Shown: positions 213 to 59,773 of the stretch, in pieces | How positions within the stretch are numbered: position 1 is the stretch's first letter | Layout of the letters: each line of letters opens with the position of its first letter | NCBI RefSeq assembly: GCF_036250755.1 | Contig: NZ_CP109583.1 | Location: 6,735,501 to 6,799,500, forward strand | Length of the DNA stretch: 64,000 nt | From: Streptomyces uncialis | GTDB taxonomy: Bacteria > Actinomycetota > Actinomycetes > Streptomycetales > Streptomycetaceae | Direction of reading: 5' to 3' | Notes under the pieces: generated by a model | Told to the model about the DNA's origin: nothing | The model's database searches: none | Seen by the model: only the letters and a program-made list of their open reading frames with translations | Program-made: the position numbers and the translations under genes

Positions 213-1916
213 TCATGAACGGCCCTGCCGGGATCCGCGCAGCGGCTCCCAGCCGGCGCCGCGCTCCGGCAGCAGCGACGGGTCCCCGAGGACCGCGCCC
301 GCGTGCACCTCGTGCATCAGCCGCCGTCCGAGGATCTGGCCCGCGCACGCGATACCGCTCACCGCGGAACCGGTGATGCCGTTGCCGTAGCGGGTGTTGG
401 CGCCCGCGATGTGCAGGCCCTCGATCACGGTCGCCGTGTCGGGGCGGGCCCCGGTGGCGCCCCAGCGCGCCATGCCGAAGGGGGTGCCGCCGGTGGACAG
501 CGTGTACCGCTCCTGGGTGAGCGGGGTCGCCGTCTCCAGATGGGTGATCCGGTCCCGGAAGGTGCCGAGCACCTCCTCCGCGGCGTCCAGCACCGACTCC
601 GTCAGCGCCGCCTTGCGCCGCAGGTACTCCGGGTTGTCGCGGTACCGCTCGCCGTCCGCCGGACCGGCGCTCACCCCCCAGGGCTCCAGACCGGGCGGGC
701 ACAGCGTCATCAGCTGGAAGTTGGAGTGGCCCGGCGGGCAGATACGGCGGGTGTCCGGGTCCTTGCCGTTGGCGAAGGAGACGAACAGGAAGTCCGTGCC
801 GCCGGAGGCGGAGCCGTCGCGCAGGGAGCGGTAGAACCGCTCGATGTCGTCGTCGCGGTACCACCAGAGGTTGGCGTGCCGCCCGAGGTCCTCGGACAGC
901 CCGACGTAGACGGTCGCCCAGGGCAGCGCCATCCGCGCGTCCTGGGTCTTCGCCGCCAGTCGGCGGGGCAGATGCTCGGCGCCCACCAGGTCCAGCATGG
1001 TCCGCCGGTAGTCCGCGTTGGAGACGACGACCGGCGCCGCTACCCGGGTCCCGTCCGCGAACTCGACGCCCGTGGCCCGCTTCCCGTCCACCAGGACCCG
1101 CCGCACCCGGGCATGGGTACGCAGCTCACCGCCCCACGCGCGGATCACCTCCAGCAGCCCGGCGGCCAGCATCTGACCGCCGCCCTCGGGGTAGTAGGCG
1201 CCCCGCATGTAGTGGTCGACGAGCGTCGCGTGGGTCGCCACGGTCGCCTCGTCCGGCGCCATCCCGTAGTTGGGGGACTGCGCGGCGAGCAGCGTCCGGG
1301 CCCGCGCGGAGAGCCCGCAGTGGTCGAAGAGATCGGCGAGGGTGCGCCGCCCCCAGGCCACCGACTGCGGTGCGCGCTGCGGCAGTTCGGCCATCGGCAC
1401 GTCCTCGGCGGTGAGGATGGCGTCCCGCCGTTCGGCGCCGAGTCCGGAGACCACGTCCACGAACACGTCGATCCCGGCGGAGTCCTGCGGGCACAGGTCC
1501 GTGACCCGCTTGCGGTACCCGGCCCAGTCGGCGGGGACGTCGAGCGCGGCGCCGGGGATCAGCACCCGGTCGAAGCCGTCCGGGTCCATCTCCCGGTAGG
1601 TGATACGGCCGCGCAGCCCGAGACCGTCGAGGATCGCGGGCAGCACCCCGTCCGACCCGCAGTCGCCGAGGTAGTGCAGCCCCACGTCGAACTCGTAGGC
1701 GCGGCGTCTTCGGAACACATGGCTGTTCCCGCCGGCGACACCCGCCTGCTCGGCGACCAGGACGCGTTTGCCCGCGACGGCGAGATACGCGGCGCTCACC
1801 AGCCCGCCGATACCGGAGCCGATCACCACCGCGTCCCACGACGAGCCGCTGCCGCCACCGGCCGTACCCGTACCGCTCACGCTCTCCGCTCCGTTCACGT
1901 TCCCCGTCCCGCTCAC
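213..1916 (-). CDS. CrtI/phytoene-desaturase-like FAD oxidoreductase
   Basis: 567 residues from a GTG whose first bases overlap the stop of the upstream acyltransferase gene (GTGA, 1913-1916), so the two are translationally coupled. After about 30 low-complexity Gly/Ser residues comes the dinucleotide-binding motif VVIGSGIGGLVSAAYL and then GLHYLGD, as in the phytoene desaturase/carotenoid isomerase/retinol saturase superfamily. The C-terminus has the family's IEGLHIAGANTRYGNGITGS flavin-contact block. Members oxidise, reduce or isomerise conjugated polyenes. Next to a reducing type II polyketide synthase, a role in adjusting double bonds of a polyene chain is a sensible inference. The substrate is unknown, and other FAD amine oxidase-fold activities are possible. 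Confidence 0.85.
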   Translation of the reverse strand: MSGTGNVNGAESVSGTGTAGGGSGSSWDAVVIGSGIGGLVSAAYLAVAGKRVLVAEQAGVAGGNSHVFRRRRAYEFDVGLHYLGDCGSDGVLPAILDGLGLRGRITYREMDPDGFDRVLIPGAALDVPADWAGYRKRVTDLCPQDSAGIDVFVDVVSGLGAERRDAILTAEDVPMAELPQRAPQSVAWGRRTLADLFDHCGLSARARTLLAAQSPNYGMAPDEATVATHATLVDHYMRGAYYPEGGGQMLAAGLLEVIRAWGGELRTHARVRRVLVDGKRATGVEFADGTRVAAPVVVSNADYRRTMLDLVGAEHLPRRLAAKTQDARMALPWATVYVGLSEDLGRHANLWWYRDDDIERFYRSLRDGSASGGTDFLFVSFANGKDPDTRRICPPGHSNFQLMTLCPPGLEPWGVSAGPADGERYRDNPEYLRRKAALTESVLDAAEEVLGTFRDRITHLETATPLTQERYTLSTGGTPFGMARWGATGARPDTATVIEGLHIAGANTRYGNGITGSAVSGIACAGQILGRRLMHEVHAGAVLGDPSLLPERGAGWEPLRGSRQGRS

Positions 1917-2872
1917 GCGACGTTCCGTCCGGCGGGCGCGGGCACGGCCGGCAGCTGGCCCGGTTCGCTGACGGTCAGCCGGGAGACCCGGGGACTGATC
2001 CGGCGGGCCAGCCCGGTGAGGGTGCGGCCCGGGCCGATCTCCACGAGCATGTCGCAGTACAGGTCGTCGGCCATCGTCCGCACCGAGTCCGCCCACCGCA
2101 CCGGGGAGGTGAGCTGCCGCTCCAGGATGCGCGGCCAGTTGTCGCGGCCCCGGTGCGCCCGCGCGTCGATGTTCGCCACGACCGGCGCGAACCCGGCCCG
2201 GAACTCGGTACCGCTCAGCGCCTTGCGGAACGCCAGCGCGGCGGGGGCCATCAGCGGGGTGTGGAAGGCGCCGCCGACCGGGATCGACACGATCCGCGCG
2301 GCGGGGGAGTCCCCGAGCAGCTTCGCGCAGTGCCCGACGGACTCCTCGCTGCCCGAGAGCACCGACTGGAGCGGCGAGTTCAGGTTCGCCACCCACACCC
2401 GGCCCCCGTCGGCGCGCACCGAGGCGGTGGCCGCCTCGACCTCGTCCGGCGGCAGCCCCACGACGACCGCCATCGTGCCGGCCTCGGCGGCGCACGCCGC
2501 CCGCATCGCGGCGCCGCGCCCGGCGACCAGCCGCGCCCCGTCCTCGAAGCTCAGGATGCCCGCGGCGACCAGCGCCGAGTACTCGCCCAGACTGTGCCCG
2601 GCGCACACCAGCGGCCGGTCCGCCGTGGGCAGCGCCTGACGCAGCTCATGGAGGATCACCATCTCCAGCACGAACGTGGCGAGCTGCGCGTTGTCGGTGC
2701 GGCGCAGCCGCTGCTCGTTGGCGTGCAGCAGCAGATCCACCACATCGCGGCCGGTGACCTCAGCGGCCCGCTCCGCCAGGAACCAGCCAGGGCTGGTCGT
2801 CCAGGGGCGGCCCATCCCGGGCTGCTGCGCACCCTGGCCGGGAAATGTCAGTGCCAAACGTGGACCGCTCAT
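1913..2872 (-). CDS. Malonyl-CoA:ACP transacylase (FabD-like)
   Basis: 319 residues. The start chosen at 2870-2872 gives the family N-terminus (ALTFPGQGAQ) and is preceded by an AGGTGGGGG-type ribosome site. The longer open frame upstream has a non-family, AT-rich sequence. GHSLGEYSAL carries the nucleophile Ser94, and GAFHTPLM carries the catalytic His about 105 residues later. It would load malonyl units onto the cluster ACP. Most Streptomyces aromatic type II PKS clusters borrow the fatty-acid FabD, so a dedicated copy here is notable and is shared with some reducing type II systems. It is the first gene of a minus-strand pair with the FAD oxidoreductase and is divergent from the ACP gene. 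Confidence 0.92.
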   Translation of the reverse strand: MSGPRLALTFPGQGAQQPGMGRPWTTSPGWFLAERAAEVTGRDVVDLLLHANEQRLRRTDNAQLATFVLEMVILHELRQALPTADRPLVCAGHSLGEYSALVAAGILSFEDGARLVAGRGAAMRAACAAEAGTMAVVVGLPPDEVEAATASVRADGGRVWVANLNSPLQSVLSGSEESVGHCAKLLGDSPAARIVSIPVGGAFHTPLMAPAALAFRKALSGTEFRAGFAPVVANIDARAHRGRDNWPRILERQLTSPVRWADSVRTMADDLYCDMLVEIGPGRTLTGLARRISPRVSRLTVSEPGQLPAVPAPAGRNVA

Positions 2873-2891
2873 ATCGGCTGACCCCCACCTT

Positions 2892-2912
2892 CTGGTATTC
2901 GCTGGATACCAG
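2892..2912. promoter_or_regulatory. Inverted repeat in fabD/ACP divergent promoter
   Basis: A perfect dyad, CTGGTAT (2892-2898), 7-nt spacer, ATACCAG (2906-2912), lies 20 bp upstream of the fabD-like start in the divergent control region before the ACP/ketosynthase operon. It is a plausible operator for one of the cluster regulators (TetR, MerR). No regulator can be assigned from sequence alone. Confidence 0.45.
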
Positions 2913-3002
2913 ATTGACAACCCCCTCTGGAAGCCCGATGGAGCACGAATAAAAGCGAGAAAAAGGGGCGGGCAAATGCCGTGGAACGTGGTCACCACAC
3001 GG

Positions 3003-3056
3003 TTCGATGTCACTTTCGATGAATGTCGTACGCCTTTCGTGGGGTGACTCTTGTAC
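3003..3056 (+). promoter_or_regulatory. Candidate SARP-binding heptamer repeats and -10
   Basis: TTCGATG occurs at 3003-3009 and again at 3015-3021, and a relaxed copy TTCGTGG is at 3036-3042. The spacing is close to one and two helical turns. A possible -10 (TTGTAC, 3051-3056) starts 8 nt after the last copy, the arrangement known for SARP activators, which bind TCGAG-like heptamers spaced 11 or 22 bp upstream of -10. The operon downstream is ACP-KS-CLF-dehydratases, and a SARP gene is present at 19085-19921. Binding is inferred, not shown. Confidence 0.4.
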
Positions 3057-3118
3057 GCCCAACTTCGGCCTGTTTACGTTCCGTTCTGTTCGCCCCGCAC
3101 AGGATGAGAGGAACGCGC

Positions 3119-3394
3119 ATGACTCAGCAGACCGTTACCACGGCCGTCGAATACCACGCGCAGGTCAGCCAGATCGTCAACGAGGAACTGGAGCTGGAGG
3201 ACGGCGAGCTGACCGACAGCGGACACTTCATCGACGACTACGACAGCGACTCGCTCTCGCTGATCACGGTGGTCTCCCGCATCGAGAAGGAACTCGGCGT
3301 CGCCATTCCGAAGACCGAGCTCGGTGAACTCTTCAACCTGCGCCTGCTGGTGGACGCGGTCGTGCAGTACGCCAAGGAGCGCGCGGATGGCTGA
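3119..3394 (+). CDS. Acyl carrier protein
   Basis: 91 residues. The ATG at 3119 follows a GATGAGAGGAA ribosome site, and in-frame codons upstream do not resemble an ACP. The phosphopantetheine attachment site is Ser45 in the D44-S45-L46 motif (YDSDSLSLI), followed by the acidic helix typical of ACPs. It carries the growing chain for the adjacent ketosynthase pair and is presumably activated by the Sfp-type transferase at 18378-19088. Its stop overlaps the ketosynthase start by 8 nt (ATGGCTGA), so the two are co-translated. Confidence 0.93.
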   Translation: MTQQTVTTAVEYHAQVSQIVNEELELEDGELTDSGHFIDDYDSDSLSLITVVSRIEKELGVAIPKTELGELFNLRLLVDAVVQYAKERADG

Positions 3395-4634
3395 GCCCGG
3401 TCTTTCCGTAGCCGGGGCGCCGGAAATGCGCCGCGTCGTGATCACGGGGCTCGGCGCGGTGTCGCCCGTCGGTATCGGCGCCGATGTGTTCGCCGCCGCC
3501 GTCCGTGCGGGGACGGTCGGAACCAAGCCGATCACGAGCTTCGACGCGAGTGCCTTCCCGCGTCGCAACGCCGGTGAGGTCCTCGACTTCGAACCGGCCG
3601 ACCACCTCAAGCGGCTCGACCCGGGAAGCTGGGGGCGCAGCGGTCTGCTGGCGGCCGCGGCCGCCCGGCTCGCCGTCGCCGACGCCGGGATCGACGAGGG
3701 CCAGCTGGAGCTCGCCCGCGCCGGCGCGATCATGGGCACCACCAGCGGTGAGTCCGCGGTCATCCAGGAACTCGCCGAGCAGTGGGTGGCCGACGGGCTG
3801 CACACGATCGACGGACGGCTGGCCGGGCAGACCCCGGCCTCCCGGATCGCCAACGCGGTCAGCACGGAACTGCGGCTCAGCGGCGAGACGCAGACCATCC
3901 CGACCGCCTGCTCCGCCTCCAACTACGCGCTGGGCTACGCCTACGACCTGGTCCGCAGCGGCGAGGCCGAGGTGATGCTGGCGGGCGGCGCGGACGCCGT
4001 CAACCGGCTCACCCACGCGGGCTTCTACGCGCTGGGCGCGATGGCCGAGGACGTCCCGCGGCCCTTCGCGGCCGACCGCACCGGTATCGTCACCGGTGAG
4101 GGCGGGGCCGTCCTGGTGCTGGAGACGTACGAGCACGCGGTCGGACGCGGGGCGCGGATCTACGCCGAGGTGCTCGGCTACGCCGCCAACTGCGACGCCT
4201 CCCACATGGTCCACCCGGACAACACCAGCATCGCCGCGTGCATCCGTGCCGCGCACGAGGCCGCCGGGGTCCGCCCCGAGCAGATCGACTACATCTGCGC
4301 CCACGGCACCGGCACCCCGACCAACGACGCCACCGAGGTCGCCGCCGCGCGCGAGGTGTTCGGCGAGCGCATCCCGCCGATCAGCTCCATCAAGTCGATG
4401 CTCGGCCACACCATGGGCGCCGCCTCCGGCTTCGGGGCGATCGCCTGCTGCAAGGCCCTGGAGCAGGACTTCCTGCCGCCCACCGCCAACATCACCGAGC
4501 CCGATCCGGAACTCGGCGAGGGCGTCGACCCCGTGGCCGGCGTCGGACGCGCGGCCCGGCTCGACATCGTGCAGAACCACGGCTTCGCGTTCGGCGGCAA
4601 CAACGTCATCACCATCTTGGGGAGGGTGTCGTGA
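3387..4634 (+). CDS. Ketosynthase alpha (FabF-type, type II PKS)
   Basis: 415 residues of the thiolase-fold beta-ketoacyl-ACP synthase family. The catalytic triad is visible: Cys175 in IPTACSASNYALG, His in CAHGTGTPTND and His in MLGHTMGAASGFGA. It catalyses decarboxylative Claisen condensation of malonyl-ACP with the growing chain, as a heterodimer with the chain-length-factor partner encoded next. The start ATG overlaps the ACP stop; an internal ATG 13 codons on is less likely. The sequence looks closer to FabF and to KS proteins of reducing (polyene) type II systems than to aromatic minimal PKSs, an impression that needs a phylogeny. Confidence 0.93.
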   Translation: MAEPGLSVAGAPEMRRVVITGLGAVSPVGIGADVFAAAVRAGTVGTKPITSFDASAFPRRNAGEVLDFEPADHLKRLDPGSWGRSGLLAAAAARLAVADAGIDEGQLELARAGAIMGTTSGESAVIQELAEQWVADGLHTIDGRLAGQTPASRIANAVSTELRLSGETQTIPTACSASNYALGYAYDLVRSGEAEVMLAGGADAVNRLTHAGFYALGAMAEDVPRPFAADRTGIVTGEGGAVLVLETYEHAVGRGARIYAEVLGYAANCDASHMVHPDNTSIAACIRAAHEAAGVRPEQIDYICAHGTGTPTNDATEVAAAREVFGERIPPISSIKSMLGHTMGAASGFGAIACCKALEQDFLPPTANITEPDPELGEGVDPVAGVGRAARLDIVQNHGFAFGGNNVITILGRVS

Positions 4635-5749
4635 CGGCCACCACCACGGGTCCGGCCCCCGCCGGCCCGGCCACCACCGTCGTCGAGCCGCTGTACATCA
4701 CCGCGGCCGGGGTCGTGTCCTCGGCGGGCATCGGGCTCGGTCCGCTGGCCGACGGGCTCCTCGGGCTCACCGAGTCGCAGGAGGGGCCGGTCGGCGAGGA
4801 CGCCGAGGCGTACCCGCCGCGCCCGGTACGCGCGGTGCGGGGTCTGGACGTCAAGGAGCACCTGGGCCGCAAGGGCACCAAGTACCTCGACCGCCTCACG
4901 TCGTTCGGGCTGATCTCCACCAAGGAGGTGCTCCGCGACACCGAGGTCGACGGGGCGCGCACCGGAGTGGTCATGGCCACCAACACGGGCTCGGTGTCCA
5001 CGCACAGCACCCTGCTGTACGACACGCTGACGCTCGACAAGCCGTACCTGGTCAACCCGGGCCGGTTCCCGAACACCGTCATGAACAGCGCCGCGGGACA
5101 GATCGCCATCCGCAACGGGCTGCGCGGCCTCAACGCCACCGTCGCGGGCGGCCAGACCGCCTCCCTGCTGGCCTTCCGGCACGCACGGCTCGCCCTCGGG
5201 CTGCGCCGCGCGGACCGGCTGGTGGTCGGCGGTGCGGAGGAGCTGAGCGCCCCGGCGGCGTGGGGCTGGCACCGTACGGGGGTGCTGCGGGACGGGGCGG
5301 CCCTGGGCGAGGGCGCCGCCGTGTTCACCGTGCAGCGGGAGCGGCCCGCCGAGGGCCCGCTCGCCGAACTGCTCGCCTGCGAGACCCGGTTCACCCCCGA
5401 CCCCCGCGGCTACACCGACGGCCTGGCCGACGCGGTGACGCGGGCGCTGCTCCGCAGCGGGGTGTCCCCCGACGAGGTGGACGTCGTCTCGCTCGGCGCC
5501 GTCCACCAGCGTGGCCTGGAGCGGCTGGAGGAGCGCGGCGTGCGGGCCGCGCTGGGGGGCGGGCTGCCGCGCACCGTACGGATCGCCGATGTGCTCGGCG
5601 AGACGTTCAGTGCCAGCGGCGCGATGCAGCTCGCCGCCCTCCTCGCGCTGTGGCAGGCCGAGCCGGCCGCCCCGCCGGTGACCGCCCTGGTCACCTCGGT
5701 GGGGTGGGACGGCCAAGCCGCGGCCATGGTGGTGCGAAGCCCCCGCTGA
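4631..5749 (+). CDS. Chain-length factor / ketosynthase beta
   Basis: 372 residues starting at a GTG that overlaps the KS stop (GTGA, 4631-4634). The active-site Cys of a ketosynthase is replaced by Gln in VAGGQTASLL, the hallmark of KS-beta partners, and the His residues of the KS triad are absent. At 372 residues it is shorter than the usual roughly 400, with a compact C-terminal half. It would heterodimerise with KS-alpha and set the number of elongation rounds. A strong hairpin follows 12 bp after the stop, before the dehydratase genes. Confidence 0.9.
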   Translation: MTATTTGPAPAGPATTVVEPLYITAAGVVSSAGIGLGPLADGLLGLTESQEGPVGEDAEAYPPRPVRAVRGLDVKEHLGRKGTKYLDRLTSFGLISTKEVLRDTEVDGARTGVVMATNTGSVSTHSTLLYDTLTLDKPYLVNPGRFPNTVMNSAAGQIAIRNGLRGLNATVAGGQTASLLAFRHARLALGLRRADRLVVGGAEELSAPAAWGWHRTGVLRDGAALGEGAAVFTVQRERPAEGPLAELLACETRFTPDPRGYTDGLADAVTRALLRSGVSPDEVDVVSLGAVHQRGLERLEERGVRAALGGGLPRTVRIADVLGETFSASGAMQLAALLALWQAEPAAPPVTALVTSVGWDGQAAAMVVRSPR

Positions 5750-5760
5750 GGCCCGCGGTA

Positions 5761-5801
5761 CGGCAGCGGCGCCCGTGAGTTGTCCACGGGCGCCGCTGCC
5801 G
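5761..5801. terminator. 17-bp perfect hairpin between KS-beta and dehydratase
   Basis: Arms at 5761-5777 and 5785-5801 are perfectly complementary over 17 bp with a 7-nt loop. No T-run follows. It may be a partial terminator or an RNA stability element that sets KS/CLF expression above that of the dehydratases downstream. Confidence 0.6.
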
Positions 5802-5868
5802 TTGGCCGTCGCCCGTGCCACCCCGGAGCCCGGAGCCCGGCCCCGTACGCGCTGCCCGGTGGCCCCCG

Positions 5869-5944
5869 CCGACCCACTCCCGCAGCACCCGCTCCCGCAG
5901 CACCCACCGAGCCACCCAGCAGCACCCACCGACCCACCGACCCA
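5869..5944 (+). repeat. Degenerate CCCACCGA/CCCGCAGCAC repeats in leader
   Basis: The untranslated stretch before the first dehydratase holds short imperfect direct repeats: two copies of CTCCCGCAGCACCC, two of AGCACCCACCGA and a run of GACCCACC. It is C-rich and G-poor on the plus strand, so the transcript would be largely unstructured. That would be consistent with a spacer between the upstream hairpin and the AGGAGG ribosome site at 5955-5960. Confidence 0.5.
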
Positions 5945-5964
5945 TCTTGACCACAGGAGGTCAC

Positions 5965-6390
5965 GTGCCCGGCGTCTTCGACACGTCCTGCCAGGGACGC
6001 GTCTACCCACCCGGCGAGCCCTACGAAGTGGGCCGCGAGAAGATCAGGGAGTTCTCGGCGGCGGTGGGGGGCGGGCCCGGCGACGGGCTCGTCGCGCCGC
6101 CCACGTTCCCCATCGTGCTGTCCATGCACGCCGAACGGCAGGTCATCGACGATCCGGGGCTCGGCTTCGACTTCTCCCGGGTCCTCCACCGCGACCAGCG
6201 GTTCGAGGCCGTACGGCCGGTGCGGGCCGGGGACCGGCTGTCGGTGAGCGTCGAGGTGCTCGCCGCGGCGACCGTGGACGGCAACGACGTGCTCACCCTG
6301 CGTGGTCTTGTGCACGAGGCCGGCACCGAGGTGCTGGTGTGCACCACGACGTCCACCCTGGTCTCCCGCGGTGCGGAGGCGGGCGCGTGA
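5965..6390 (+). CDS. MaoC-like dehydratase subunit (HadA-type)
   Basis: 141 residues from a GTG preceded by a perfect AGGAGG (5955-5960). The sequence fits the N-terminal MaoC/FAS1 dehydratase hot-dog family: a YEVGREKIREFSAAVG start, VAPPTFPIVL, a HRDQRFEAVRPVRAGD block, and a closing strand ending in CTTTSTLV. As in mycobacterial HadA it lacks the catalytic D-x4-H motif and likely forms the substrate-binding half of a heterodimer with the next gene, whose GTG overlaps its stop. Together they would dehydrate beta-hydroxyacyl-ACP to enoyl-ACP and so generate a polyene. Confidence 0.85.
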   Translation: MPGVFDTSCQGRVYPPGEPYEVGREKIREFSAAVGGGPGDGLVAPPTFPIVLSMHAERQVIDDPGLGFDFSRVLHRDQRFEAVRPVRAGDRLSVSVEVLAAATVDGNDVLTLRGLVHEAGTEVLVCTTTSTLVSRGAEAGA

Positions 6391-6794
6391 TCGGCTCCGG
6401 CGACAAGCTGCCCCTGCGCGTCTTCCGTGTCACCCGCGCCGATCTGGTGCGGTACGCGGCGGCGTCCGGCGACCACAACCCCATCCACTGGTCCGACTCC
6501 CGGGCCCTGGCCGTGGGGCTGCCGGGGGTGATCGCGCACGGGATGCTCAGCATGGGGCTTGCGGCCACCGCGCTCACCGAGTGGGCGGGCCCGGACGCGG
6601 TCGTCGTCGAGTACGGGACCCGTTTCACGCGTCCCGTGGTGGTGCCCGACACCGCCGACGGCGTGGAACTCACCGTCGACGGTGTGGCGGGCGACGTCAG
6701 CCCGGACGGCTCGGTTCGGGTAGATCTGACGGTGCGCTGCGGAGCGGAGAAGGTCCTGGCGCGGACCCGGGCCCGGGTTTCCCCCGGTCGATAG
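6387..6794 (+). CDS. MaoC-like dehydratase catalytic subunit (HadB-type)
   Basis: 135 residues starting at a GTG that overlaps the previous stop (GTGA, 6387-6390). The hydratase-2 motif ASGDHNPIHW supplies catalytic Asp29 and His34, followed by GVIAHGMLSMG, typical of HadB/MaoC (R)-specific hydratases. With the upstream subunit it would perform the beta-dehydration step. Its last 98 bases overlap, tail to tail, the 3' end of the MFS gene on the other strand. Two separate small dehydratase subunits, with no aromatase or cyclase of the aromatic type, point to a reduced linear product. Confidence 0.9.
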   Translation: MIGSGDKLPLRVFRVTRADLVRYAAASGDHNPIHWSDSRALAVGLPGVIAHGMLSMGLAATALTEWAGPDAVVVEYGTRFTRPVVVPDTADGVELTVDGVAGDVSPDGSVRVDLTVRCGAEKVLARTRARVSPGR

Positions 6795-8097
6795 CGAACC
6801 CGGCGAACGCGCCGGCGAACACCACGGCGGCCCCCGTCAGCACCGCGCTGCGGAGGCCGCTGTTCACATAGACGGCGGTGAGCACGGCGATGCCGAGCGC
6901 GCCGCCGAACTCGCGCAGGGTGTTGTTCACGCCGGACGCCACATTGTGCTCGTGCTCGGCGACCGAGCCGATCACCGTCGAGGGGTTCGCCGCGAACACC
7001 AGCCCCATGCCGATCCCCGCGAGGGCCATCGCGGCGGACATCTCCGAGTAGGACACCCCGGGCCGGGCCGTCAGACCCAGCCAGAGCAGGGCGCCCGCCT
7101 GGAGCAGACAGCCGACGGCCTGGAGGATGCCGCCGCCGACCCGGCCGACCAGCGCGCTGGCCACGGGGACGGCCACCATGGGCGCCGCCGTCCACGGCAG
7201 GGTGCGCAGCCCGGCCTCGAAGGGGGAGTACCCCATCGTGTTCTGGAGGAACTGGGCGAGGAAGAACACCGAGCCGAACACCCCGAAGTACATCGCCAGG
7301 GCGAGGACGTTGCTCAGCATGAACGCCCGTACCCGGTACAGATGCGGGGGGACGAGCGGGGCGGGTGCCCGCTGCTGCCAGTACCGGAACACGACCAGCA
7401 GCGCGGTGGCGACGACGAGCCCGCCGAGCAGTACGGGCAGCCCGCCCGCCTCGAACTGGACGATGCCCCAGACCGCGGAGATCACCGCCCCGGTGATCAG
7501 GACGGTGCCGAGGACGTCCAGCGGGCGCGGTGCCCCCCGGGACTCCCGCAGCACCCAGAGCGCGAGCGGCAGGGCCAGCACCCCGACCGGTACGTTGATC
7601 CAGAAGATCCAGTGCCAGTCGAGTCCTTCGGTCACCAGACCGCCGACGAGGGGGCCGACCGCGATCCCCAGACCGTTGACCCCGCCCCACACGCCGACGG
7701 CCAGCGCCCGGCGCTCGGTCCCGGCGGCCTGGACGGCGAGGGTGAGGGACACCGGCAGGATGGCCGCCGCCCCGATGCCCTGGAGCGCGCGGGCCGCGAT
7801 CAGGGTGGCGGAGGTGTCCGCCAGCGCGCACGCCGCGGACGCCACGGTGAACAGCGCGATGCCCCAGACGAAGACCCGGCGCCGTCCGATCCGGTCGCCG
7901 AGGGCCGCCCCGGCCAGCAGCAGCCCGGCGAAGACCAGGATGTATCCGCTCATCACCCATTGCAGACCGGCCTGGTCCGTGTCCAGGTCCTCGGCGATCA
8001 CGGCGAGGGCGTTGGTGACCACCAGATTGTCCACGGCCACCATGAACATGGGCAGCGAGGTCGCCACGAGGGCCCATGCCACCGACTTGCGTTCCAT
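6697..8097 (-). CDS. MFS drug-efflux transporter (DHA2/EmrB-QacA type)
   Basis: 466 residues with about 14 hydrophobic segments. The start at 8095-8097 follows a purine-rich GGAGAAGGAGG site. It has the DHA2 motifs: N-terminal PMFMVAVDNLVVTNAL (motif D1-like), GAALGDRIGRRRVF (motif A) and the GPLVGG antiporter motif C. It is last in the AfsA-HAD-KR-SnoaL-MFS operon and is the likely exporter of the cluster product. The C-terminal roughly 30 residues are Pro/Ser-rich and are encoded antisense to the dehydratase gene, so they are probably dispensable. Confidence 0.9.
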   Translation of the reverse strand: MERKSVAWALVATSLPMFMVAVDNLVVTNALAVIAEDLDTDQAGLQWVMSGYILVFAGLLLAGAALGDRIGRRRVFVWGIALFTVASAACALADTSATLIAARALQGIGAAAILPVSLTLAVQAAGTERRALAVGVWGGVNGLGIAVGPLVGGLVTEGLDWHWIFWINVPVGVLALPLALWVLRESRGAPRPLDVLGTVLITGAVISAVWGIVQFEAGGLPVLLGGLVVATALLVVFRYWQQRAPAPLVPPHLYRVRAFMLSNVLALAMYFGVFGSVFFLAQFLQNTMGYSPFEAGLRTLPWTAAPMVAVPVASALVGRVGGGILQAVGCLLQAGALLWLGLTARPGVSYSEMSAAMALAGIGMGLVFAANPSTVIGSVAEHEHNVASGVNNTLREFGGALGIAVLTAVYVNSGLRSAVLTGAAVVFAGAFAGFAIDRGKPGPGSAPGPSPLRSAPSDLPEPSRPG

Positions 8098-54048: not shown

Positions 54049-54091
54049 CGCCCACCACGAAAACGTCTCGCGGCGGGGCGGGAGTTCCGGG
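54049..54091 (+). repeat. Left 43-bp direct repeat flanking lasso cassette
   Basis: Matches 59731-59773 in 42 of 43 positions, in the same orientation (A versus G at position 9). Its centre is AAAACGTCTCGCGGCGGGGC. It lies in the gap between the site-2 protease and the methyltransferase, just past the 3' end of the methyltransferase. It could be one end of an inserted block or a copy of a dispersed chromosomal repeat. Confidence 0.8.
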
Positions 54092-54103
54092 ACGCCGGGT
54101 CGT

Positions 54104-54937
54104 CTACGTCCGGGCCTGCCGCGCCCCCCGGCACACGAGCACCCCGGCCAGGCAAGTGACGCGGAACGCGCCCTCGGCCCGGATCGTCTCCTGGACCCGC
54201 TCACGGGCACGCCCCACGGTTTCCAGGAACGGGACGCCCATCCGGTCCGCCCAGGCCTCGTACGAGGCCAGGTGGGCCACCACCGGTTCGGCGTCGGTCA
54301 CCGCGATCACCCCGGGCAGGAGGATCGTACGGATGTCGCCGAAGACCGCGCCGAGGACCGTCGGCGCGTCCTCCAGGGTGAACCGGGCGGACAGCCGCAC
54401 CCGGTCCGGCCCTTCCGGAGTACCCAGCACATCACCGGCGGCCCGCTTCCACAGGCTCTCCAGTTCCCGTTTGTCGGTCACGCTGTTGGTGGAGACGATC
54501 GCCACGCCGCCGGGCGACAGGACCCGGCCCAGTTCGCGCACGGCCCGGGCCTGGTCGTCGGCGTGGTACAGCATGTGCGGCGCGAGGGCCGCGCCGAGGG
54601 CTCCACCGGCGAAGGGAAGCTGCTCGGCGTCCGCGACGACGGCTCCCGGAACGCCCGCGAGGATGCCCTGCGAGATGTCCACGGGAACCAGCGGCAGGTC
54701 GGGCCGCTCCTCCCGCACCCGTGCGGTGAACCTCCCGTTGCCGCAGCCCACGTCCGCGACAGGGCCTCCTACGCCGGCCAACTCGCGCACGACGATGCCC
54801 GGCAGGTCGTGGCGCGGGGTCTGCCACTGATAGAGGGACTGGCGAGCGGCCAGATGCCGGCCTGTGCCGTACGCCTTGGTGGACAGCAGGCCCCGGTCGG
54901 TGACCAGGGCGTCGTCGTTCGCGGGCTGGGTGGTCAT
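54104..54937 (-). CDS. Class I SAM-dependent methyltransferase
   Basis: 277 residues. SAM motif PVADVGCGNGRFTARV, then PVDISQGIL, DAEQLPFAGGALGAALAPHMLYH and GGVAIVSTNSV. The helical cap and C-terminal tail are like small-molecule methyltransferases of the UbiE type. The ATG overlaps the upstream TPR-frame stop (ATGA, 54934-54937), so it is translated with the XRE/TPR regulator. It may be a pair partner of this regulator rather than a lasso-peptide modifier, since it points away from the lasso genes. Confidence 0.85.
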   Translation of the reverse strand: MTTQPANDDALVTDRGLLSTKAYGTGRHLAARQSLYQWQTPRHDLPGIVVRELAGVGGPVADVGCGNGRFTARVREERPDLPLVPVDISQGILAGVPGAVVADAEQLPFAGGALGAALAPHMLYHADDQARAVRELGRVLSPGGVAIVSTNSVTDKRELESLWKRAAGDVLGTPEGPDRVRLSARFTLEDAPTVLGAVFGDIRTILLPGVIAVTDAEPVVAHLASYEAWADRMGVPFLETVGRARERVQETIRAEGAFRVTCLAGVLVCRGARQART

Positions 54938-55458
54938 CGCGGCTCCGTGGGACGGCTGACGGGAGCGGGACGGTCGGTCATCTCACGGACACGCTCACGA
55001 AGACCGATCACCGACCGGGTGTCACGGTACGGTCCGCTGCCCAGGAGCGTGGCCAGATTGCGAAGCCTGATGGTGATGCTGGCGGTGTACTCCTCGGCAC
55101 CGAGCACCTCGGAGAGTTCCGCGTCGGCTCCTTCCACCTCACCGCTCGCGAGGTAGGCGGTGGCCAGATCCAGATGTGCGGCGTGCAGATCGCCGGAGGA
55201 GCGGTCTCCTTCCGGCCCTGCCTGGTACAGCTCCACCGCGCGGTTGGACGCGGTGATCGCCAGCTGAACCTGCTCGCGCCCCCCGACCGTCAGCAGGGTG
55301 GTTCCGGCGTAGGTCCATTGCTTCGCCTCGGGAAACGAGAAGACCCCGGCCAATTCATCCCGTTCCGCAGCGCTGCGCGCTTCATGGGCAAGCGCGAGCG
55401 AGCGCAACGCCTCGTGCCTGTCGCCCCGGGCCGCCAGGGCCCGTGCCTCCAGGCTCAC
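54934..55458 (-). CDS. TPR-like C-terminal half of split XRE regulator
   Basis: 174 residues from a GTG at 55456-55458. Helical repeats (ALAARGDRHEALRSLALAHEARSAAERDEL, VQLAITASNRAVELYQ, HLDLATAYLASGEVEGADAELSEVLG) fit the TPR region that follows the HTH in Streptomyces XRE regulators. A tandem 4-bp duplication (CTCA CTCA, 55454-55461) shifts the frame from the HTH half; removing one copy would read KARLLSLEARAL without interruption. It is either separately translated from the GTG or a broken gene. Confidence 0.65.
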   Translation of the reverse strand: MSLEARALAARGDRHEALRSLALAHEARSAAERDELAGVFSFPEAKQWTYAGTTLLTVGGREQVQLAITASNRAVELYQAGPEGDRSSGDLHAAHLDLATAYLASGEVEGADAELSEVLGAEEYTASITIRLRNLATLLGSGPYRDTRSVIGLRERVREMTDRPAPVSRPTEPR

Positions 55459-56245
55459 TCAGTAGCCGGGCCTTGATCGTCCCTGTGCCTGGGCCCCGGC
55501 CCTTCTCCCGCCCTGCCCGGGCAAGATCTGCCGCCCTCCCGTGCTCTCCCGCCCAGTAGGCGGCCAGTGACTGGAACGATCGCGCCCAGGACCCCAGCGT
55601 CGAGTGTTCTGCGATCTCCGCGCACTGCACCACGGTACGAGCATGGGTGGAAGCCGAGGAGCGGTCGCCGAGATCGAGCGACACATGTGCCGCGAGGCCG
55701 CACAACCAGCCCGCGACCACATACAGATGCTGTGTCTGGCCGGGGCGCTGGCGTCCTTCGAGCAGCCGGAACACCTCCGTACGCACCGAGCGGATCTCCG
55801 GGATCAGCAAGGACAGCGGCCGACTGACAAAACCCTCTGAGAGTCGTGCCACGTCAGCGTCGAACTGTTCCAGCACAAGAGCGTTGACGTTGGTCTCCGC
55901 AGCGTATCGGGCAAGCCGGGAGGACAGCTCCGTGTCGGTGGAGAAACCGCGCACATCGTCTGTGCGCCCCGGTGCGGAAGGCGCGCCCCTCCGCCCGGCA
56001 GGCTCCTTTGGGCACAAGCCCAGCTCTACCTCGCCGGATACCTGAAACACCGCGCACAAGGCCGCCCTGTACTCACCGGAGGGCCAGGTGATCGCCCCGC
56101 GTTCGAGACGGGAGATCCAGTTCGCGTCAAGGTCCGGGTTCCGTCCCGTGGCTGTTTGGACCTGCGCACAGACGCGCTCCGCGACCTGTGCCTGAGTCCA
56201 ACGCCGCTCGTGTCTGAGCCTTCGCAGGCTCTCGTTCGCCATCAT
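55382..56245 (-). CDS. XRE-family regulator, HTH half
   Basis: About 287 residues in this frame, from ATG 56245 (or 56242). An N-terminal HTH (LRRLRHERRWTQAQVAERVCAQVQTATGRNPDLDANWISRLERGAITWPSGEYRAALCAVFQV) is followed by a helical region. The last roughly 25 residues after KARLLS are out of frame relative to the TPR half. The gene is divergent from the lasso-peptide genes, and its target may be their promoter. The open question is whether the frameshift is real or an assembly error. Confidence 0.75.
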   Translation of the reverse strand: MMANESLRRLRHERRWTQAQVAERVCAQVQTATGRNPDLDANWISRLERGAITWPSGEYRAALCAVFQVSGEVELGLCPKEPAGRRGAPSAPGRTDDVRGFSTDTELSSRLARYAAETNVNALVLEQFDADVARLSEGFVSRPLSLLIPEIRSVRTEVFRLLEGRQRPGQTQHLYVVAGWLCGLAAHVSLDLGDRSSASTHARTVVQCAEIAEHSTLGSWARSFQSLAAYWAGEHGRAADLARAGREKGRGPGTGTIKARLLSEPGGTGPGGPGRQARGVALARACP

Positions 56246-56300
56246 CCCGCCGTCCGCTGGTCGAGTCGGGGCGCCGGAAAGCCTAGCGGGCATCGAGCCT

Positions 56301-56327
56301 TGCGAGTGCCTGCGATGTGCCTTGCGA
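56301..56327. repeat. TGCGA direct repeats before lasso precursor
   Basis: TGCGA occurs at 56301, 56311 and 56323 within near-repeats TGCGAGTGCC, TGCGATGTGC and TTGCGATATGCC, about one helical turn apart. They lie close to the XRE start and far upstream of the precursor, in a 285-bp divergent gap. They may form a binding site for the XRE regulator. The rest of 56246-56530 shows no gene. Confidence 0.4.
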
Positions 56328-56530
56328 TATGCCCTGTTGGGCTTCTGCGCACCGGAGTTGACTGAGGTGCGTTCCCCGATCGGACAGTCCCGGTACCAGG
56401 CGGCCTTTGTATGGCGGACACGCTCAAGGCGCTGTCTGGAGGTTGTGGATCAACGCGCCTGGGAGATCGCACCATCACGGCGAGAACAGTGTCGCCCCGT
56501 GAGCGAGGAAGGAAAGGAGGTGAAGACGTT

Positions 56531-56659
56531 ATGGCGGTAACCCCCCGGCTCGACACCGAGACGGACGACGAGATCGTGGTCCTGGAGGACGCGACGCTCC
56601 TGACAAGGGGCAACACCACCAACAGCGTGGAGAGCAAGCGTTCCCCGTACACCGGCTGA
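56531..56659 (+). CDS. Lasso peptide precursor (albusnodin-like)
   Basis: 42 residues, with an almost perfect AAGGAGGTGA 7 nt before the ATG. The leader (about residues 1-26) is acidic and hydrophobic (DDEIVVLEDATLLTR), with Thr at -2 of the cut site, as required in lasso leaders. The predicted core is GNTTNSVESKRSPYTG: Gly1 would form an isopeptide ring with Glu8, leaving an 8-residue tail, and Lys10 lies just outside the ring. From memory, albusnodin (GQGGGQSEDKRRAYNC) has the same Gly1, Glu8, Lys10, Arg11 and Tyr14 and is acetylated on Lys10. The leader lacks the YxxP motif of many lasso leaders. Confidence 0.82.
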   Translation: MAVTPRLDTETDDEIVVLEDATLLTRGNTTNSVESKRSPYTG

Positions 56660-56733
56660 CAGCACGGCGGCGGCACCCCACCCTTGAGATGCCGCCGCAC
56701 CCTTCCCAGGCTCGAAAGCATGGAGATGATCAC

Positions 56734-58425
56734 ATGGGCTGGTTCGGTGGAGCTGTCGGCCCACCCGGTACGACCCGCACTCCCGTCGGTGCCCGGTTGA
56801 TGTGGCCGGACTCCCAAGTCTGGACGGTCGCGACCTCGGTGCGTGCGTCAAGGACAGCGAACGGGCGACGGCTCGCGGTGTTCGGTCCGTGCGCCGCTGC
56901 GGACGCGGAACTGAACCGGCTGGTCGAGTCCGTCGGCATGAACGATCTTGACGCCGCGGCGACCGCGTGGCCTGGCGCGTACGCGCTGGTCCTGGATGAT
57001 GGGAAGGGCACTCTGACCCTGTGGGCCGATCCGGCCGGCGCTTGCCCTCTCTATACCGCCCAGGTGAACGGGACAGCCATGTGGGCGTCCAGTTCGATGG
57101 CGCTCGCCTCACTGCTCGGCGGCAAGCCCGACACCGCTTGGCTAGCTGCCCACCTGGCGTCTCCGACCGAGTGGGTTCCCGGCCGCTCGGCCTGGTCCGG
57201 CGTCGAACAGGTCCCGCCCGGATGCAGGTGGACAGCAACCACCGAGGGCGTCTCCGCCAGTGCTCCGTACTGGCGGTCACGCACCTGCACCCGGTCCGAG
57301 GCTGTGGACCGGTTGCGCGAGGACATCGCGGGCGGTGTCCGCGTCCGAGTGGACGGACGGCCGACGTCCTCGGACCTGTCCGGCGGCCTGGACTCAAGTT
57401 CCCTCGCCGCTCATGCCGCCCGGCGCGGCACGGTCACCGGGATCACCTACCACCCGACCGGGAGGGACACCGGCGGCGACGCTGACCACGCCCGTATGGT
57501 GGCTCGCGCCTTCCCGTCCATCCGGCACCGTTTCATGCCCCTGGGCCGGGAGCACCTGCCCTTCACGGACCTTGACGCGCTCGTCCTCACGGACGAGCCC
57601 GCCCCCTCCACTATCACCATCGCCCAACTCTTTTCCCAATTCGTCATGTTGGTATCCGAGGGTGCCTCAGTTCATCTGACCGGAGACGGCGGTGACACCC
57701 TGTTCATGCCGCCCCCGGTCCACTTCGCGGATCTTGCCCGCTCAGGGCGCGTCCTCCGGCTGGCCAGAGACGCTCAGTCATGGGCCCGCCTCAACCGGGC
57801 GAGCCCCTGGCCGGCCCTGGCCGCAGCCTGGAGAACGCCCGGACGCCTGAGTGGCACCCTGCCGAAGCCATGGCTGAGCGGTCACACCACCGACATGGCC
57901 GAGGCTGTCATCGCGCCCCACCCCCTGCCGGTCCTGGGTCACGCTGACCGCTACCTCCTGGCCGAAGCCCGGTATGTGGGCCGCACAGCCGCGGCGGAGA
58001 GCCAGCTGGCCACCGCGTTCGGTATCGAGATGCACAACCCGTACACCGATGCCCGTCTTGTAGAGGGGGTGTTGGCCGCCCCCTCCCTGGACCGATGGTC
58101 GGCTCACCGGTACAAGCCTCTGCTGGCCGACGCCGTCAAGGACCTCTTGCCGGAGGAAGTGGTACAGCGTGGTGCCAAGGGCCTGTTCGCGGTGGATCAC
58201 CACCATGGCCTCCGCGCCAACGAGGCGCGCGTCCTGGACCTCGCAGACGGCCACCTCGGAGATCTCGGGCTCGTCCGCCCTGCGGTCCTGCGTTCGCTCC
58301 TCCGCCGCGCCATGCTCGGCGTGGACATCCCGTGGGGATTGATCGAGCCCGTCCTGGGCGCTGAGCTGTGGCTCCGGATCTCTGGAACTGCCACCCGCCA
58401 CGTTCGATGGGAGGAGACAGCGTGA
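56734..58425 (+). CDS. Lasso cyclase (asparagine synthase-like)
   Basis: 563 residues from the ATG at 56734 with GGAG 8 nt upstream. The N-terminal glutaminase-like half starts MGWFGG with no catalytic Cys2, as in lasso cyclases. The ATP-pyrophosphatase motif is SGGLDSS (216-222), with LTGDGGDTLF and ENPYTD-like HNPYTDARLVEG further on. It would adenylate the Glu8 side chain and join it to the Gly1 amine. It sits between precursor and protease genes (GTGA overlap with the next). Confidence 0.9.
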   Translation: MGWFGGAVGPPGTTRTPVGARLMWPDSQVWTVATSVRASRTANGRRLAVFGPCAAADAELNRLVESVGMNDLDAAATAWPGAYALVLDDGKGTLTLWADPAGACPLYTAQVNGTAMWASSSMALASLLGGKPDTAWLAAHLASPTEWVPGRSAWSGVEQVPPGCRWTATTEGVSASAPYWRSRTCTRSEAVDRLREDIAGGVRVRVDGRPTSSDLSGGLDSSSLAAHAARRGTVTGITYHPTGRDTGGDADHARMVARAFPSIRHRFMPLGREHLPFTDLDALVLTDEPAPSTITIAQLFSQFVMLVSEGASVHLTGDGGDTLFMPPPVHFADLARSGRVLRLARDAQSWARLNRASPWPALAAAWRTPGRLSGTLPKPWLSGHTTDMAEAVIAPHPLPVLGHADRYLLAEARYVGRTAAAESQLATAFGIEMHNPYTDARLVEGVLAAPSLDRWSAHRYKPLLADAVKDLLPEEVVQRGAKGLFAVDHHHGLRANEARVLDLADGHLGDLGLVRPAVLRSLLRRAMLGVDIPWGLIEPVLGAELWLRISGTATRHVRWEETA

Positions 58426-59060
58426 GGAACCCGGCCCCGGATAAGCACACACGTACCGCGCTCACCGATGAGGCAGGAGTGATCGTCAACTACCGGACCG
58501 GCGAAACCGTCGTTCTCACCGGCGATACCCTGACCCGCTGGCTCGCCTCCCTGGAGAACAGCGCAGCACCCGTACCCATCGCCATTCGCGCCTCCGAGGT
58601 CTCCTGGGGCACCCATGAGTCACCCGCCCGACTGGAACCCTCACCTGGGTCGTCGTGGCCCTTCCGCGCGGCTGCGCTGGTGCTCCTGGTGATCACCCTC
58701 GCCGTCCGGCAGATCGGCCGCACGCGCACAAGGTTTGGCCGTTTGGTCCGCCTCGCTGAAGCAGGCCGGGAACTTCCCCTCCCCACCAGCAACCACGCCC
58801 GGCAGGCTGTCCGCTCGGTGCGCTGGGCAGCGCAGGCCCTTCCAGCCCGTATCGCGTGTCTGGAAGAGTCCACCGCCGCTTCGTTGCTGCTCATGCTCGG
58901 CGGTCGTGGAGGAGCCTGGCGGCACGGCCTTGCCACCGACCCGATACGCCTGCATGCCTGGATCTGTGACCTTCAAGGCCGTCCGATCGACGAACCCGTC
59001 CACACCGACCACTACACGCCCATCAACGCACCAGAGTCCGCATGGAAGAAGAACCGATGA
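58422..59060 (+). CDS. Lasso leader peptidase with N-terminal extension
   Basis: 212 residues from a GTG overlapping the cyclase stop. The C-terminal half is the B2-type transglutaminase-like protease, with Cys146 (RIACLEEST), His178 (LHAWI) and Asp190 (GRPIDEP). The 32- and 12-residue spacing matches, as I recall, the McjB triad Cys150/His182/Asp194. The first 65 residues (DEAGVIVNYRTGETVVLTGDTLTRWLASL) resemble a PqqD-like recognition element, so leader binding and cutting may be in one chain. A possible membrane-like stretch (AAALVLLVITLAV) lies at 83-95. No separate recognition-protein gene is present. Confidence 0.85.
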   Translation: MRNPAPDKHTRTALTDEAGVIVNYRTGETVVLTGDTLTRWLASLENSAAPVPIAIRASEVSWGTHESPARLEPSPGSSWPFRAAALVLLVITLAVRQIGRTRTRFGRLVRLAEAGRELPLPTSNHARQAVRSVRWAAQALPARIACLEESTAASLLLMLGGRGGAWRHGLATDPIRLHAWICDLQGRPIDEPVHTDHYTPINAPESAWKKNR

Positions 59061-59599
59061 CCGCTCCGCATATCCTCCTGCCCGGACAGCGCGTCAGTCT
59101 GGCGATGCCCGACCGCGATCACCTGCCCGCCTACCACCGCTGGGAGAACGACCCCGGCACGATTCTCGGATTCGGCACCCAGGTCACTCAGTCGTGGGAG
59201 GTCCGGGCCGGAGGCTGGGAAGGCCAGCAGGCCAACCGCGACTATCCGCAGTTCGAGGTGATCACCACGGACGATCACAGGCCGGTCGGGATCACGACTC
59301 TTCAGATCGACGGGGCCGTGCGGACGGCGGAGTTCGTGATCCTGCTGGCCCCCGAAGCCCGGGGCCAAGGCCTGGCCCCGGAGGCCACCGCACTGACGCT
59401 TCGGTGGGCGTTCGAGTACGCCGCCCTGCGCATGGTCTGGCTTAAGGTCCTTGCGCCGAACGCATCAGGCATCGCGGCCTACCAGAAGGCAGGATTCCAG
59501 CCTGCGGGCCGCCTGCGGCAGTCCGGCTACTGGCTGGGCCGCCCCTGCGACGAGCTGCTGATGGACGCGATCGCCGACGACCACCTCGGCACCTCGTGA
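59057..59599 (+). CDS. GNAT acetyltransferase of lasso cassette
   Basis: 180 residues from an ATG overlapping the protease stop (ATGA); an ATG 15 nt earlier is the alternative. The RimJ/L-type GNAT fold is visible: VSLAMPDRDHLPAYHRWEND at the start, motif A in APEARGQGLAPEATALTLRWAF and NASGIAAYQKAGFQPAGRLR in motif B. In the albusnodin type a linked GNAT acetylates Lys10 of the core. The present core also has Lys10, so it is the likely substrate. It is the last gene before the right 43-bp repeat. Confidence 0.88.
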   Translation: MTAPHILLPGQRVSLAMPDRDHLPAYHRWENDPGTILGFGTQVTQSWEVRAGGWEGQQANRDYPQFEVITTDDHRPVGITTLQIDGAVRTAEFVILLAPEARGQGLAPEATALTLRWAFEYAALRMVWLKVLAPNASGIAAYQKAGFQPAGRLRQSGYWLGRPCDELLMDAIADDHLGTS

Positions 59600-59730
59600 G
59601 TGCGCCCGATCGAGCGTCCTTCCCAGCACCGAACTAACAGATCGTGATCACTTCGTGACTCGACGCGCCGGGTGAGCCGCAATCGTCGGACCCCGCCGGG
59701 AATCCGCGAGGCGCGGGTTCCGCTTCGGCG

Positions 59731-59773
59731 CGCCCACCGCGAAAACGTCTCGCGGCGGGGCGGGAGTTCCGGG
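59731..59773 (+). repeat. Right 43-bp direct repeat flanking lasso cassette
   Basis: Second copy of the repeat at 54049-54091, same orientation, one mismatch. It stands in the 250-bp gap between the GNAT gene and the AfsR-like gene, so the two copies bracket exactly the methyltransferase, XRE/TPR, precursor, cyclase, protease and GNAT genes (5.7 kb). No integrase or transposase lies between them. The rest of the gap shows no gene. Confidence 0.8.

Follow-up and report, generated by a model that had tools for sequence, protein, structure and literature searches.

An albusnodin-type lasso peptide cassette in Streptomyces uncialis, and lone copies of its acetyltransferase gene that hint at a role in self-protection

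We analysed a 64,000-nucleotide stretch of Streptomyces uncialis DNA (assembly GCF_036250755.1, contig NZ_CP109583.1, positions 6,735,501 to 6,799,500; hereafter the window) and found, at 56531-59599 on the + strand, a cassette of the albusnodin type in which genes for a lasso precursor (A), a macrolactam cyclase (C), a leader peptidase (B) and, directly 3' of B, a GNAT acetyltransferase (T) follow one another in the order A-C-B-T. The cassette itself is confirmed, with all four genes open; its product is very likely an albusnodin-type lasso peptide with an acetylated Lys10, the cut site, ring, threading and acetylation being predicted from the genes. Because GNAT genes of this kind have repeatedly outlived their cassettes in several separate lineages, we put at about 50% the probability that the acetylation chiefly serves self-protection of the producer. 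An earlier note on this DNA, made from the letters alone, had described a precursor with Thr at -2 and a core with Gly1, Glu8 and Lys10, next to cyclase, protease and GNAT genes, and our analysis bears this out: the 56531-56659 reading frame carries all four residues, Lys10 being the sole lysine of the whole precursor, and has AAGGAGG 10 nt 5' of its start; the cyclase exceeds the 300-bit cut-off of NF033561, the NCBIfam albusnodin/ikarugamycin subfamily, and B the 33-bit cut-off of the lasso B2 family NF033537 (scores in Table 1); and T is a GNAT of the RimJ/RimL type, with matches to PF13302 and PF00583. The gene overlaps that it reported are present between C (most likely start ATG 56734) and B, where the TGA stop at 58423-58425 overlaps the GTG start at 58422 as GTGA, and between B and T, where the stop at 59058-59060 overlaps ATG 59057 as ATGA; its GNAT frame start at ATG 59042 is the less likely alternative, and the alignment of relatives begins at about 59057.

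The known enzymology of the lasso class fits the cassette. B would recognise the leader and cleave between Arg -1 and Gly1, C would activate Glu8 and close the Gly1-Glu8 ring round the tail, and T would acetylate the side chain of Lys10, with one albusnodin-type lasso peptide expected from the cassette. The neutral monoisotopic mass calculated for the acetylated 16-residue lasso is 1720.80, or 1663.78 and 1562.73 if one or two residues, respectively, are trimmed from the C-terminus. Structure comparison placed T nearest to PDB 9iy3, titled 'Iterative acetyltransferase on lasso peptides from Actinomycetes'; the title says iterative, whereas the window core has a single lysine. For albusnodin itself (Streptomyces albus DSM 41398, albACBT) the core is one that we take to be GQGGGQSEDKRRAYNC, the same as the cores of five of our loci (L085, L090, L098, L100 and L127). 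The window shares with albusnodin the A-C-B-T order, Gly1, Glu8, Lys10, Arg11, Tyr14, the GNAT and the cyclase subfamily, whereas its core is otherwise different and ends in Thr-Gly rather than Cys, its GNAT and cyclase fall into a different sub-group (GQGGGQSEDKRRAYNC-type cyclases are ~39-41% identical to that of the window) and its precursor stays under the cut-off of the albusnodin family NF033525. For albusnodin, two reviews describe the ACBT order and mention 43 clusters like it (PMC9266682, PMC8498205).

Among 295 genomes of the same genus, this cyclase clade stood clearly apart, with 12 genomes above 590 bits followed by a gap down to 368 bits, and one more clade cyclase lying in pieces in G116; the window cyclase is 39-70% identical to 11 clade members. 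A scan of named genomes yielded 79 loci (80 with the window), most of which have A, C, B and GNAT consecutively, and in 71 of the 80 a precursor with the family leader immediately precedes the cyclase (the search pattern was the family leader motif, with lysine not required, and the other nine loci yielded none). The core GNTTNSVESKRSPYTG groups with GNT[NS]SSVENKRSPYGA and similar cores, and an identical 16-residue core occurs in the S. uncialis precursor P0001, which is 93% identical overall with its leader differing at 3 of 26 positions; the S. uncialis GNAT P0004 is 96% identical to the cassette GNAT. The identical core and the 71 upstream precursors argue that the cassette is not a product of chance. 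The earlier note was right that the core shares the key positions and lacks a terminal Cys; the predicted product is a further member of the known albusnodin-type kind, its core already encoded in S. uncialis. To our knowledge P0001 has no known product, and a literature search, beyond whose reach lay full texts and most subscription papers, returned no report that we recognised of the core GNTTNSVESKRSPYTG.

The GNAT and the lysine go together. A lysine two residues past the ring-closing acid was present in 67/67 loci with both precursor and GNAT, the window included (K10 after an 8-residue ring in 63, K11 after a 9-residue ring in four; L087, with a split GNAT, is included in the count). Since the four nine-residue-ring cores, all from Promicromonosporaceae, have K11, the lysine tracks ring closure and not a fixed position. 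Across the 70 cores with this lysine the next residue is always Arg or Gln, and 68 have Tyr at K+4. No GNAT was found in L128 and L129, the cores of which both lack the ring+2 lysine (that of L129 was read by eye), and L117, outside the precursor count, has a core with Lys10. In contrast, this GNAT was seen in 0/33 control loci of other lasso clades, which are lower-scoring lasso cyclases rather than a random sample and some of which end at contig ends close after B (L143, L166), and the lysine in 0/19 control cores, read by eye, the remaining 14 control loci giving no recognisable core. Together with the family scores and the gene order, this co-occurrence supports the albusnodin-type interpretation that the earlier note had offered. 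Promicromonospora cores L106-L108, GSKKK[AK]GTEDKRY[AT]YR, have nine-residue rings with several ring lysines, which makes them a natural kind of substrate for iterative acetylation; in Nocardiopsis kunsanensis (L079, 12210-13425) two GNATs of this family stand in tandem after B; and in a Pseudonocardiales metagenome-assembled genome (L092, 9929-11941) the cyclase reads in frame into the GNAT and B is missing, by deletion, fusion or assembly error.

A GNAT model search of the 295 genomes returned 21 full-length copies at 250 bits or more, of which 11 belong to cassettes and 10 have no cyclase or recognisable precursor within 10.6-19 kb. Two of the ten genomes with a stand-alone GNAT also hold a cassette, namely G035 and the genome of the window, where the lone copy (L200; G000:C1:4417125-4417682, - strand) belongs to another subclade, is 51% identical to the cassette GNAT and is preceded by a weak 24-position match to B. 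Traces of B accompany other lone copies as well, as a remnant in G025 and still there, in two frames, in G231; a plasmid of S. anulatus carries a lone GNAT, and in L206 (7416-10273) a TetR regulator gene, divergent from a major facilitator superfamily (MFS) transporter gene, immediately precedes the stand-alone GNAT. On a GNAT tree of 87 rows (not counting 14 pieces that were partial or duplicated, nor 2 rows of the outgroup), 12 rows were labelled stand-alone, these being the ten lone GNATs plus L104 and L109, where the cyclase is cut short. They are interspersed with cassette GNATs and require 9 label changes, at least 8 of them forced by well-supported branches, which we read as cassette losses. 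Shuffled labels need 11.5 changes on average, indicating that the lone copies are somewhat clustered, with L207-L210 forming one clade. Eight of the 12 retain 37-38 of 38 conserved positions, and pairwise dN/dS (Nei-Gojobori) between stand-alone GNATs other than L207-L210 and their relatives is 0.08-0.23. As a control we followed B: 15/15 clade B genes above 140 bits adjoin GNAT sequence, broken in 3, and no lone clade-type B was found among them.

This pattern hints at the signature of an immunity gene. The un-acetylated knot would harm its producer, T would disarm the peptide inside the cell, and this would also be why T is retained or carried on its own. That AlbT-type GNATs are immunity enzymes first, carried alone as resistance genes on chromosomes and plasmids by strains that lost the cassette or never had it, we propose tentatively, as somewhat short of an even bet; if true, the genome of the window combines an island for making the peptide with an older lone GNAT from a different subclade, and two lasso types may be covered. 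Lysine acetylation is termed self-resistance for triculamin and lariocidin in one review (PMC13352647), and the lariocidin cluster has a GNAT (PMC11451635) and an ATP-binding cassette (ABC) exporter. Those lasso antibiotics feature a Ser1-Asp8 ring, a Lys/Arg-rich core and ribosome inhibition; the window core, with Gly1/Glu8, one Lys and one Arg, is not of their type. The purpose of acetylation is unsettled in the reviews, and the natural series, running from complete cassettes through those whose GNAT is broken to lone GNATs, makes the question testable, letting maturation and self-protection be told apart.

The account that competes most directly with self-protection is that acetylation is an obligate step of maturation, in which T would act on the linear precursor to make it fit for processing and folding by B and C, immunity would play no part and lone GNATs would be leftovers of recent decay; we regard this as possible, if doubtful. 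The two reviews relate that deletion of albT gave no un-acetylated product, that no product was obtained without albT and that acetylation may come early (PMC9266682, PMC8498205); with T placed last, losses that begin at the 5' side would spare it. On the other hand, no lone B matches the lone GNATs, the latter arose on several branches and mostly keep their conserved positions, and their dN/dS is low, though part of the divergence predates the loss. Several observations weigh against the interpretation that we prefer. Part of the lone-GNAT pattern could stem from recent decay and from T being the final gene of the operon, and the albT deletion fits obligate maturation as well. L207-L210 retain only 34-35 of the 38 conserved positions and all have G108R, in what we take to be the acetyl-CoA loop, and so may be inactive; dN/dS within this group is 0.20-0.44, and three of the four have over 10 kb of flanking DNA in common. 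L150, L152 and L154/L087 have a split or truncated GNAT while precursor, cyclase or B is partly or fully kept there (the L154 genome has a second cassette with an intact GNAT), L060 has a precursor and no GNAT, and the partial GNATs L211-L213, besides L216 at a contig end, indicate that lone copies decay too. As to the class, product, ring and acetylation are predicted from the genes, and the precursor scores 26.5 bits against NF033525, under the cut-off of 30 that sister precursors in G202, G266 and G035 exceed (31.8-35.6 bits); our assignment of the cluster accordingly relies on its gene order and cyclase and does not include it in that family.

Two other accounts concern whether the peptide is made or modified here. 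The island may be silent or decaying in this strain, with no peptide made, which we consider unlikely: the divergent regulator gene is split in two frames and decayed cassettes exist in the genus, but all four reading frames of the cassette are open, S. uncialis has an identical core behind a leader that differs, and the regulator may be a repressor or its split a sequencing error. Still far less probable is a bystander GNAT with no action on the peptide. One review suggests this for the ulleungdin cluster, with an acetyltransferase gene nearby and the acetylated product undetected (PMC9266682); here the genes overlap, the GNAT and the lysine motif co-occur in every one of the 67 loci and in none of the controls, and the nearest structure is a lasso acetyltransferase by title.

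Table 1. Features of the cassette and of the island that contains it (window positions).
Feature	Positions	Strand	Evidence and remarks
Left copy of 43-nt direct repeat, left island border	54049..54091	+	
SAM (S-adenosylmethionine)-dependent methyltransferase in island	54104..54937	-	PF08241 54.9 bits
NsdA-family XRE/TPR regulator, divergent from cassette, split in two frames	54934..56251	-	NF053720
Lasso precursor A, 42 aa	56531..56659	+	Open reading frame with ribosome-binding sequence; NF033525 26.5 bits
Parts of precursor A: leader of 26 aa, MAVTPRLDTETDDEIVVLEDATLLTR, then predicted core, GNTTNSVESKRSPYTG	56609-56656 (core)		
Macrolactam cyclase C, asparagine-synthetase-like	56734..58425	+	NF033561 641 bits; PF00733 111.5 bits
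Leader peptidase B (B2, transglutaminase-like)	58422..59060	+	NF033537 75.5 bits; PF13471 61.2 bits
GNAT acetyltransferase T	59057..59599	+	PF13302, PF00583; alternative start 59042
Right copy of 43-nt direct repeat, right island border	59731..59773	+	42/43 identical

The cassette lies in a 5.7-kb island (54049-59773) bounded by the 43-nt repeat, the 32-nt core of which occurs only at these two borders in the whole genome (9.26 Mb, three contigs; up to 3 mismatches allowed). In 7/7 relatives examined, picked from the same-genus genomes with a matching right-hand gene, the sequence is collinear on both sides and 161-710 bp stand in place of the ~5.9 kb of the window. Within the gap, five of these empty sites keep one diverged copy of the repeat that mismatches at 5 to 10 of 33 positions (best values of 11-13 in 20 shuffles of one such stretch), and none was seen at the other two. 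A search of the window for tRNA genes found none, so a tRNA-borne island there was rejected and the island reading rests on the repeat and the empty sites. GC content falls to 67-69% over the cassette, with a comparable dip at 20-23 kb of the window. Against NF053720 (432 positions), the regulator piece at 55385-56251 covers 2-282 and the piece at 54937-55458, in the other frame, 286-432, which may reflect a pseudogene or a sequencing error; methyltransferase and regulator also occur as a pair, 78% identical and free of the cassette, at another place in G014. Homologues of this regulator or of the one in L051 lie near 15/62 cassettes, eight of which (L051-L058) are very close kin; the idea of a quorum-type regulator with the peptide as ligand was dropped because of this weak co-occurrence and the split gene. 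Upstream of other cassettes, a coding-like open reading frame was present in 16/60 (GC filter), 5 of them HTH_31, a set too filtered for a conclusion.

In the sister group, a tRNA-Leu gene (L051-L057, L060, L104) or a tRNA-Ser gene (L058) lies at a distance of 0.1 to 8.5 kb from the cassette, and tRNA genes are rare near cassettes outside this group. Direct repeats of 91, 35, 58 and 45 nt extend into the tRNA gene in L051, L057, L058 and L060, respectively, and a 40-nt pair lies beside it in L104; none were found in L052-L056. The L058 cassette, from S. jumonjinensis (778-8096), stands between perfect 58-nt repeats, one running into tRNA-Ser(TGA), which resemble an att pair, and in S. atratus (L126, 13134-13501) a tmRNA gene lies ~90 bp behind the cassette GNAT. 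The L051 island encodes a resolvase, and a short open reading frame beside its tRNA gene, resembling an integrase tail by eye, had no Pfam match. A copy in Sinosporangium album is 91-95% identical in DNA to Streptomyces copies over 2.5 and 1.5 kb, the two genera belonging to different orders, and cyclase and GNAT occur together on six plasmids of Pseudonocardia, Amycolatopsis and Streptomyces (annotation checked for two). The gene set appears to travel as a small island, probably via recombination at repeats like the 43-nt pair, with a recombinase that would act in trans or have since been lost; its related cores form a set for product discovery. Pseudonocardia plasmids from Apterostigma ants (NZ_CP010991.1, NZ_CP012186.1, NZ_CP013856.1) bear albusnodin-type cyclase and GNAT genes.

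In B, Cys146 and His178 are invariant, and its N-terminus was modelled as three strands and a helix (mean pLDDT 87). None of 17 family B proteins matched a profile of the RiPP (ribosomally synthesised and post-translationally modified peptide) recognition element (RRE) at E 1 or better, and Foldseek gave only a non-significant match to TbiB1 (E 2.6). A full RRE is longer than this N-terminus, and the short domain is possibly a reduced RRE. The earlier note had also stated that no ABC exporter gene is present, in agreement with our motif scan (which may miss exporters): in the 20 kb of L158 the nearest ABC ATPase motif pair lies ~8.6 kb upstream on the - strand, and among 57 loci with enough flank the scan placed such a pair within 4 kb of the cassette in one, on the opposite strand. 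PADLOC returned no match for T or the regulator piece 55385-56251, and a defence-system reading was dropped on that account. A second lasso-type cyclase (236 bits) is encoded in the same genome together with a B2-like gene (L149; G000:C1:8643788-8645509, - strand), at a locus where this GNAT is absent and no precursor was recognised.

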